Positions 8,794 to 10,752 of a stretch of 64,000 nt of DNA are shown piece after piece. The stretch spans positions 62,001-126,000 of IMG/VR virus record IMGVR_UViG_3300002835_000027, one strand, 5' to 3'. Position 1 is the first letter of the stretch, and each line of letters begins with the position of its first letter. Source of the stretch: a virus. The position numbers and the translations under genes were made by a program. The notes below the pieces were generated by a model. That model had not been told where the DNA came from, ran no database searches, and saw only the letters and a program-made list of their open reading frames with translations.

Positions 8794-10752
8794 TTATATA
8801 TGTAATGAATTAAATCTATGCGCTTCGATTTTTGGCTTTAAATTATAATTAGATATAACTATCAATTCATTAATATTCATATTTGATATATCGATAAATG
8901 ATGGTTCCGGTATAATCCTATCTATTTTCGGATAATCTTTAATTAATTCTTGTAATTTAATTTTATGAATGTAATAAGAAAATCCATAATTTTCCGCTTC
9001 GGCTACAGTCATAGAACTTTCATATCGTAATAATAATGGATTTAATCCTAATTCATTAAATACGTCATTATAACATTTATCAAATAACTCTAAATCTGAT
9101 GGATGTACCATAATAGAATCATGGACCGTTGCCGCCGGATATTTTTTATGTTTAAAAAATTCATTAACTACTCGGTTAATAAAAATTTCACTTTCTGCTT
9201 GTTGTGTTAATTTTGGTATTATATGAATTCCGCCAGCTACATTTAATGCATTGCATAATTTTATTAATTCGGGGTAAACATTACCATATTCTTGCTTTAA
9301 TGCAGTAAATTGCTTATTATTACTGAAAAATATCTTCATTGCATCTAATTTAGCAATAGATCGATCCGCATTATTACTATCGGCCATTTTTTCATAAACT
9401 ACGCCAGTCATAGCATCATTACAAAACGATTGCAGTAACTTTAAATCAACATTAGCTTCTTTAACTACATTTTTATAATGTTCAAATAATGGTATTTTTA
9501 ATCCATTAACTTCAATCTCATCGCATTTTTTCAATAACTCTTCCGCAACATCTGGATGAGAAACAATAATCGCGATGATCGCCATTTGTGAATTTTTAAT
9601 ATCAACATTAATATACGGTATATTATTATGACGAATAAATTTACGTAATTTTGCTGGCGTGTTCGTTAATATCGAATGGAATCGACCGCCAAATATATCT
9701 TTATTATTATAATAAAAATTTTTATTCGCCTTAGTCTGTTCTATAAATTCAATTAGTTCATTTAATTTTATAATATGCGGATCATTTAATTTTTCCATTA
9801 GCTGCGATATCGAACCATCAGTTTCGTAAAATTCATGCGGTCGATTTTTATAATAATCGTATATTTGTTTTTCATCTATCTGATAAAATAAAGTTTCAAC
9901 ATCGTCCATTAATAACTGATATTTTATATTATCGATTTGAGATTCTTTTCTCAATCTAGATTTATATTTTGCAATTTTTAATTTAATTTCATATGTTTGA
10001 TAATCTACAAATCTATGCGTTTTTTCATTCGGTTGATATAAATGATCTGCTAATTTATAGCATCGCGCTTTATTTGTTCCCGGAGGCGCTCCCGGTATAT
10101 GCCACCATAAATTATCAGTTTCAATATAACCACTATTAATTAATGCTTTTAAATAATATTTACAATCAATATGCGATAACTCAACTAATTCAGAATATTT
10201 AACTTGTATCCAACCCTTATTAATATCATTTTCTTGAAAATCATCTTTATTTTTGCGACGATAATTAAATTTTTTATATGAATATTTAGTTGATATCGTA
10301 TTAATAATAGAATAAGCGATATCTATATTAATATTAAATGGTTTTATATGATTTTTATCATAATGCCTTTTAAATCTAAGCATAACAGCCATAATCATAT
10401 CATCAGTTAAATTAACTGGAATCATTGCTCGACTATTCTTAAAATTATGAATTACTTGCAATCGCTCAAAACATCGCTGCGCTTTAGATTTACTTTTATC
10501 CGACTCAATAATTTCAGTTTTACATAAACCACTAATAACAGAATCAATATAAAACCGTTTAACGTCGTTCGGCGTTTTTAAATTTAATTTCTGAATATCG
10601 GCTATATCAAATTTAGTAAAATAATTATCCGATATCCATATTTGCTTATGCGGGTTATAAACACTACCATGCTTTTTGTTTACTAATATAAATTGTCCAA
10701 ACTTAGTAGTAATTTTTAAATCAACTAATAATTGATGCTCTTTTAAGTTCAT
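8794..10752 (-). CDS. Diverged single-subunit polymerase-like protein (family A DNA polymerase / T7-type RNA polymerase fold)
   Basis: 652 aa. The C-terminal half carries three motifs in polymerase order. Motif A is VDIKNSQMAII, with the catalytic Asp and a Ser-Gln as in DYSQ. Motif B is RSIAKLDAMKIFFS, which fits R-x3-K-x3-M-x3-F as in T7 RNA polymerase. Motif C is TVHDSIMVHPSD, whose HDS is the RNA-polymerase form, against HDE in DNA polymerase I. The N-terminal part has a probable winged helix around residues 190-240. T4-like phages use a family B polymerase and host RNA polymerase, so this is an extra enzyme. Its activity (RNA, DNA or priming) cannot be read from the sequence. No SD; a perfect TATAAT lies about 30 nt upstream with a poor -35. 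Confidence 0.6.
   Translation of the reverse strand: MNLKEHQLLVDLKITTKFGQFILVNKKHGSVYNPHKQIWISDNYFTKFDIADIQKLNLKTPNDVKRFYIDSVISGLCKTEIIESDKSKSKAQRCFERLQVIHNFKNSRAMIPVNLTDDMIMAVMLRFKRHYDKNHIKPFNINIDIAYSIINTISTKYSYKKFNYRRKNKDDFQENDINKGWIQVKYSELVELSHIDCKYYLKALINSGYIETDNLWWHIPGAPPGTNKARCYKLADHLYQPNEKTHRFVDYQTYEIKLKIAKYKSRLRKESQIDNIKYQLLMDDVETLFYQIDEKQIYDYYKNRPHEFYETDGSISQLMEKLNDPHIIKLNELIEFIEQTKANKNFYYNNKDIFGGRFHSILTNTPAKLRKFIRHNNIPYINVDIKNSQMAIIAIIVSHPDVAEELLKKCDEIEVNGLKIPLFEHYKNVVKEANVDLKLLQSFCNDAMTGVVYEKMADSNNADRSIAKLDAMKIFFSNNKQFTALKQEYGNVYPELIKLCNALNVAGGIHIIPKLTQQAESEIFINRVVNEFFKHKKYPAATVHDSIMVHPSDLELFDKCYNDVFNELGLNPLLLRYESSMTVAEAENYGFSYYIHKIKLQELIKDYPKIDRIIPEPSFIDISNMNINELIVISNYNLKPKIEAHRFNSLHI

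Follow-up and report, generated by a model that had tools for sequence, protein, structure and literature searches.

Why does a T4-like phage that is already equipped for replication carry one more gene for a single-subunit polymerase? The question arises from a 133,281-base IMG/VR virus record (IMGVR_UViG_3300002835_000027), in which we analyzed a stretch of 64,000 nucleotides (positions 62,001 to 126,000, referred to here as the window). The initial annotation had described one of its genes as an extra single-subunit polymerase-like protein in a T4-like phage, and this description held, as the phage genome already codes for a primase and a DnaB-like helicase (Table 1) as well as PolB (an 865-aa ORF at G000 50598-53195; PF00136, E value of 1.9e-34). 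Since PolB, primase and helicase are all present, the additional polymerase would be an accessory one. The phage also encodes a ligase. No PF00476 polymerase was found in its genome, and a duplicate of a standard PolA was ruled out on this ground.

Table 1. The polymerase gene, its motifs and relevant neighbors, with positions in the window
Feature	Position	Strand	Basis
Extra family-A-like polymerase CDS, 652 aa, ATG start	8794..10752	-	ORF list and homologues
Winged-helix-like N-terminal segment, residues ~174-236	10045..10233	-	AF2 secondary structure (predicted); hhalign with the N-terminal part of compact members
DxxxGR motif, residues 352-357, followed by invariant H359, T363 and R370	9682..9699	-	Family alignment
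Motif A, VDIKNSQM, residues 383-390 (VDIKNSQ, 383-389); catalytic D384, invariant Q389 at +5	9583..9606	-	
Motif B (O helix), RSIAKLDAMKIFFS, residues 464-477; invariant K468 and F476	9322..9363	-	Aligns with PolA motif B in hhalign
Motif C, VHDSIMV, residues 543-549; invariant HDS	9106..9126	-	Alignment, AF2 model, hhalign
DNA primase, phrog_47, E value of 8e-37	17996..18967	+	
DnaB-like replicative helicase, phrog_19, E value of 8e-66	2925..4244	+	
Ribonucleotide reductase large subunit (by inspection), divergently transcribed	11022..12932	+	Arrangement kept in both closest relatives
Small downstream gene, 169 aa	8216..8725	-	Similar 120- to 123-aa gene after the polymerase in both closest relatives

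The ORF is real and intact rather than a chance reading frame, and identical copies of the gene, with no base difference, occur in two further IMG/VR contigs. Polymerase motifs A, B and C follow one another as originally claimed, and their catalytic residues (D384, K468 in motif B and D545) are constant in all 82 aligned members of the family described below. The same is true of G356, R357, H359, T363, R370, N387, S388, Q389, F476, H544 and S546. Compact members have DxYGR in place of DxxxGR, and the more divergent Bacteroidota members found later deviate at a few invariant positions (for example, FDS in L319). Two features that had been used to describe the protein as a mixture of DNA and RNA polymerases lost this meaning in the alignment. 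The Ser-Gln pair of motif A, taken for a family A feature, lies at +4/+5 from the Asp and not at +2/+3 as in PolA, so it is not the family A pair. The Met of motif B (position 472), taken for an RNA polymerase feature, belongs to the 652-aa protein alone, the remaining members having Tyr (68), Phe (10) or Leu (3), and it is thus no evidence for an RNA polymerase.

The steric-gate Glu at motif A +5 and the HDE form of motif C are absent from the family, with Gln and HDS in 82 of 82 members. Q389 is presumed to stand at the place of Pol I E710 and F476 at that of Y766, the steric gate and the second presumed sugar-gate residue, respectively. Register and motif spacing are the basis of both assignments; the hhalign alignment to PolA begins only downstream from motif A. 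As Gln and Phe occupy these presumed sugar-gate positions in every member, the choice of sugar cannot be read from the sequence.

The structure was predicted with AF2 on the 82-sequence alignment (pLDDT of 79.8 and pTM of 0.76), with pLDDT exceeding 90 over most of the catalytic half and residues 1 to 48 and 639 to 652 unreliable; the single-sequence model of the 652-aa protein (pLDDT of 35) was useless. A palm is present in the model, as the original polymerase reading had called for, with D384 at the end of strand 381-385 and D545 in the turn of the hairpin 541-543/546-549. Motif B forms helix 464-475, and the predicted arrangement of strand, hairpin and helix matches the palm and fingers of polymerases. 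The winged-helix-like N-terminal part noticed at the outset was likewise recovered in the model, as a helix-helix-strand-strand segment; no exonuclease domain was seen in the 652-aa protein, which has the predicted winged helix instead. All 50 PDB matches listed by Foldseek were family A DNA polymerases (best E value of 9e-5), although global TM was only ca. 0.2 and the alignments had 10 to 18 Å rmsd, the low TM indicating that the match is confined to the polymerase core. VIA-align, over model residues 268 to 582, gave Z values from 10.7 to 9.6 for apPol (10.7), Bst (10.6; 3.6 Å over 245 residues), T7 DNAP (10.5), Pol theta and Klenow. No RNA polymerase (RNAP) appeared among the 50 PDB matches listed (Foldseek and VIA-align). 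In BFVD, the top matches were two phage proteins of ca. 400 aa (E values of 3e-15 and 1e-11), one of them bearing the name “Putative DNA polymerase I”; next came phage proteins of ca. 400 to 450 aa, including those of Aeromonas and Rheinheimera phages.

Sequence searches by themselves returned very little. Scans of Pfam, PHROGs and NCBIfam gave nothing usable for the 652-aa protein, and none of the three libraries holds a model for the family; PF00476 did not match the protein, nor did it appear in the list of families matched by the 82 members. A PDB profile search by sequence retrieved only a Pol I at an E value of 1.5 and a ribosomal protein, and tblastn found no match in 50,697 phage records. 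Among plasmids, tblastn gave a single weak match to a hypothetical protein encoded on a plasmid of Hymenobacter qilianensis (23% over residues 356 to 549; E value of 3e-4), which in turn led to six uncultured huge-phage records of 595 to 735 kb. The Hymenobacter and huge-phage homologues have in common GRxH, DIxNSQ or DLxNSQ, the Lys and Phe of motif B, and HDS.

Further members were sought by a DNA pattern based on motif spacing, GRxH[ST]xxT-x6-R-x14-D[IL]xNSQ, which was found in at least 119 IMG/VR stretches; a variant one residue shorter was found in 13, of which 3 were copies or near relatives of the gene studied here. Six contigs from bacterial genomes contained the pattern, five of them from Hymenobacter, and a profile search recovered members in 14 of 296 sampled Bacteroidota genomes, several copies being present in some. 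The family is therefore real and widespread, occurring in large phages, Bacteroidota genomes and Hymenobacter plasmids. Phage members are mostly compact (ca. 400 aa). Together with two relatives of 624 and 572 aa (best-segment identities of 36% and 35%; the 36% relative is full-length), the 652-aa protein forms a longer subtype that carries DIxNSQM and has a clade support of 1.0 (FastTree). Compared with the compact core by hhalign, this subtype gave a probability of 99.8 and an E value of 1e-29 over 354 columns, the winged helix included. The two closest relatives are under purifying selection (dN of 0.36 and dS of 1.62).

To place the family among known polymerases, we used an hhalign profile of the catalytic part of 93 diverse members. 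This profile matched divPolA2 at 98.3% (E value of 2e-14) and PolA at 94.5% (E value of 8e-8, with motif B, FPxI, Gln and HD aligned), while T7-like RNAP gave 1.8% (E value of 0.027; 0.16 for its reversed control), which is near background, given that reversed profiles had E values of at least 0.055 and 14 unrelated neighbor families of at least 0.035. With whole alignments, the probability for divPolA2 was 96.8 to 97.2%, and only the catalytic part was aligned, the N-terminal half was not. These scores indicate that the family is of the A type and sister to divPolA2, with no special kinship to T7-like RNAP. It is also distinct, by profile, from divPolA2 as represented by phrog_4756, which matched neither the 652-aa protein nor six relatives tested, whereas the divPolA2 protein AUR84708 matched it at 1.8e-91.

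Both divPolA1 and divPolA2 were described as extra PolA-like proteins that phages encode alongside a regular polymerase (Virol J 2024, PMC11348598). In that work, divPolA2 (phrog_4756) was found in barbaviruses and Vibrio phage ICP1, had Dali matches to mitochondrial RNAP (Z of ca. 12) and N4 RNAP (Z of ca. 9), and its role was left open between a repair DNAP and an RNA polymerase; divPolA1, from the Flavobacterium phage immuto group, retains an exonuclease domain, though an inactivated one, and its thumb is truncated. The present family resembles divPolA2 in being an extra PolA-like palm protein beside PolB with no 3' exonuclease, in size (ca. 430 aa, similar to our compact members), in the spacing from GR to motif A (29 residues in AUR84708) and in HDS, found in some divPolA2 (Aeromonas 2L372X and Barba35A). 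It differs in motif A +5, which is Glu, His or Trp in the divPolA2 examined and always Gln in the 82 members, and in its presence on Bacteroidota chromosomes and plasmids, divPolA2 having been described from phages (PMC11348598). With divPolA1 it shares the condition of an extra PolA-like protein beside a regular polymerase, but neither the NSQ nor the HDS motif is present in the immuto protein P0004 (“DNA polymerase family A”), which is either divPolA1 or the regular enzyme. Family A DNA polymerases proper (Escherichia coli Pol I, T7 gp5 and Bst; PF00476) have the same palm/fingers fold and motifs A, B and C but carry the steric-gate Glu, Tyr766 and HDE where the present family has Gln, Phe and HDS. 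Our search of the literature for the family under other names yielded only PMC11348598 and its preprint. The family is thus undescribed in the libraries searched, but an extra divergent phage PolA, as a kind, has already been reported.

PolB was found in 17 of 22 records carrying the family, some of which may be fragments. In both closest relatives, a nucleotidyltransferase-like gene recurs as a neighbor too, and the small gene downstream has weak RRM_2 matches in two relatives (E value of ca. 1e-3), on which we do not rely. In G003, G004 and LR756511 (without PolB), the polymerase gene shares 4 bp (ATGA) with the beginning of a gene for a small PolA in an operon-like manner. The gene after such a polymerase/small-PolA pair in two loci (L005:6426-6992 and L129:6290-6850) appears by inspection to be sigma-factor-like or DNA binding (DDFEDINQELIMSLI). 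Compact polymerases are followed directly (+1) on the same strand by a gene of ca. 179 aa in 73 of 136 loci (e.g., L013:2121-2660), with no Pfam or PHROG family.

Some other genes of the window are worth recording. A 488-aa protein (14627-16093) matches phrog_850, “RNA-binding protein,” over its entire length (E value of 2e-130), and L142 and L143 have a similar gene close to the polymerase. A match to the major head protein family phrog_138 (4274-5347; E value of 2e-33) is found amid DNA metabolism genes. A 674-aa helicase ORF, UvsW-like by inspection (36148-38172), is followed 1.2 kb farther on by an ORF that opens with an intein C-terminal-like stretch (39389-40303; HNYVANGVVVSNCHG). With two ORFs lying in between, the pair resembles a helicase gene that has been split by an intein or that contains one. 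Finally, six consecutive ORFs of ca. 300 to 340 aa on the minus strand (49377-55130) have similar starts (TPITLIGK/TSLTLFGR) and are apparently tandem paralogues; ORFs of similar appearance also occur at the opposite genome end (G000 12070-18854).

Bacterial neighborhoods were inspected in twelve Bacteroidota loci, where the polymerase is ca. 470 to 690 aa long. Tyrosine integrases lie near it in at least 4 of the 12, an HTH_17 or AlpA-like gene immediately precedes it in at least 4, and AAA_24 ATPases are near it in at least 2. By their gene content, these loci look like integrative elements. One genome, that of Hymenobacter lapidarius (G019), contains seven family profile matches, some of them broken, which suggests that each of several mobile elements carries a polymerase copy. 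A 686-aa Bacteroidota member (L311:6523-8583) has a C-terminal extension that by inspection resembles a GIY-YIG endonuclease with repeats. The Hymenobacter plasmid with the polymerase carries, elsewhere, an annotated replication initiation protein (Rep) and ParA, and the polymerase was for this reason ruled out as the sole Rep of the plasmid.

Taken together, the protein is probably a catalytically competent, exonuclease-less DNA polymerase of the family A type, a member of an unnamed sister family of divPolA2, and accessory to PolB. We infer its activity, its use of dNTPs and the step of replication that it would serve. The N-terminal winged helix would bring the enzyme to DNA, and the palm and fingers would carry out template-directed elongation of a 3' end, beside PolB, which would remain the main polymerase and would not be replaced. 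The step might be the start or restart of replication, gap filling, or the repair of mobile DNA; in the Bacteroidota integrative elements, the polymerase may serve the replication of the element itself.

The strongest rival, although we consider it unlikely, is a primase or replication-initiating polymerase, in which an origin or stalled fork would be recognized by the winged helix and a primer of RNA or DNA made de novo by the palm, for extension by PolB or the host polymerase. Satellites such as P4 keep a primase-initiator, and the succession of integrase, HTH_17 and polymerase genes in Bacteroidota elements lends this some circumstantial support, as do the predicted fusion of a winged helix to a palm, the ATGA overlap with the small PolA in three records and the Gln/Phe pair where the sugar gate is presumed to lie. 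However, the phage has its own phrog_47 primase, so that the polymerase is not its sole primase, and phrog_47 is detectable in 13 of 23 family-carrying records (which may be fragments); on the Hymenobacter plasmid, with its ordinary Rep, an initiator role is not required. A rather improbable extension would make this winged-helix-PolA fusion the primer-making replication initiator of Bacteroidota integrative elements, later acquired by large T4-like phages, built on the Pol I fold and not on primase folds, with a Gln/Phe gate that would permit a ribonucleotide start.

A single-subunit RNA polymerase transcribing a subset of genes, the early-transcribing enzyme of the initial annotation, is less likely and in our estimate improbable. 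It was also left open for divPolA2, with its Dali matches to RNAPs (PMC11348598), and the motif A +5 Gln in place of the PolA Glu could be read this way. HDS had been considered RNAP-like; it is indeed the form of T7 RNAP and the only RNAP-like residue that withstood comparison, but it also occurs in some divPolA2. Beyond HDS and the general polymerase motifs, the resemblance to T7-like RNAP (PF00940) ends: the profile match is not above background, the Met of motif B is private to one protein, and the members are much shorter, the distance from motif A to motif C (161 residues, and 134 in the compact member L006) being too short for the large T7 RNAP insertions. In a search for a promoter unlike sigma70 and common to a gene subset, only AT-rich TATAAT-like words clearly exceeded a dinucleotide-shuffled null among k-mers of 68 upstream regions. 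By inspection, one phage ORF resembles gp55, which would fit the T4-type use of host RNAP. As neither profiles, lengths nor the promoter search favor it, the RNA polymerase part of the original interpretation was set aside, and the extra polymerase was retained. A degenerate, noncatalytic homologue acting as a DNA-binding scaffold would fit an N-terminal half of no known family and the replacement of PolA residues outside the catalytic core, but it is highly improbable given catalytic residues invariant in 82 members from phages and bacteria and purifying selection on the two closest relatives.

On the preferred reading, that of an accessory family A-type DNA polymerase, divPolA2 gains a sister family that is much larger, includes bacterial members and has informative neighbors. 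This family, whose catalytic residues are conserved, occurs in at least 100 large-phage contigs and in ca. 5% of the sampled Bacteroidota genomes and had no model in the libraries. With its Gln/Phe gate pair, it provides a natural test of sugar selection, and the reason why a second, PolA-like polymerase is retained by phages that already have a complete replisome can now be tested directly.
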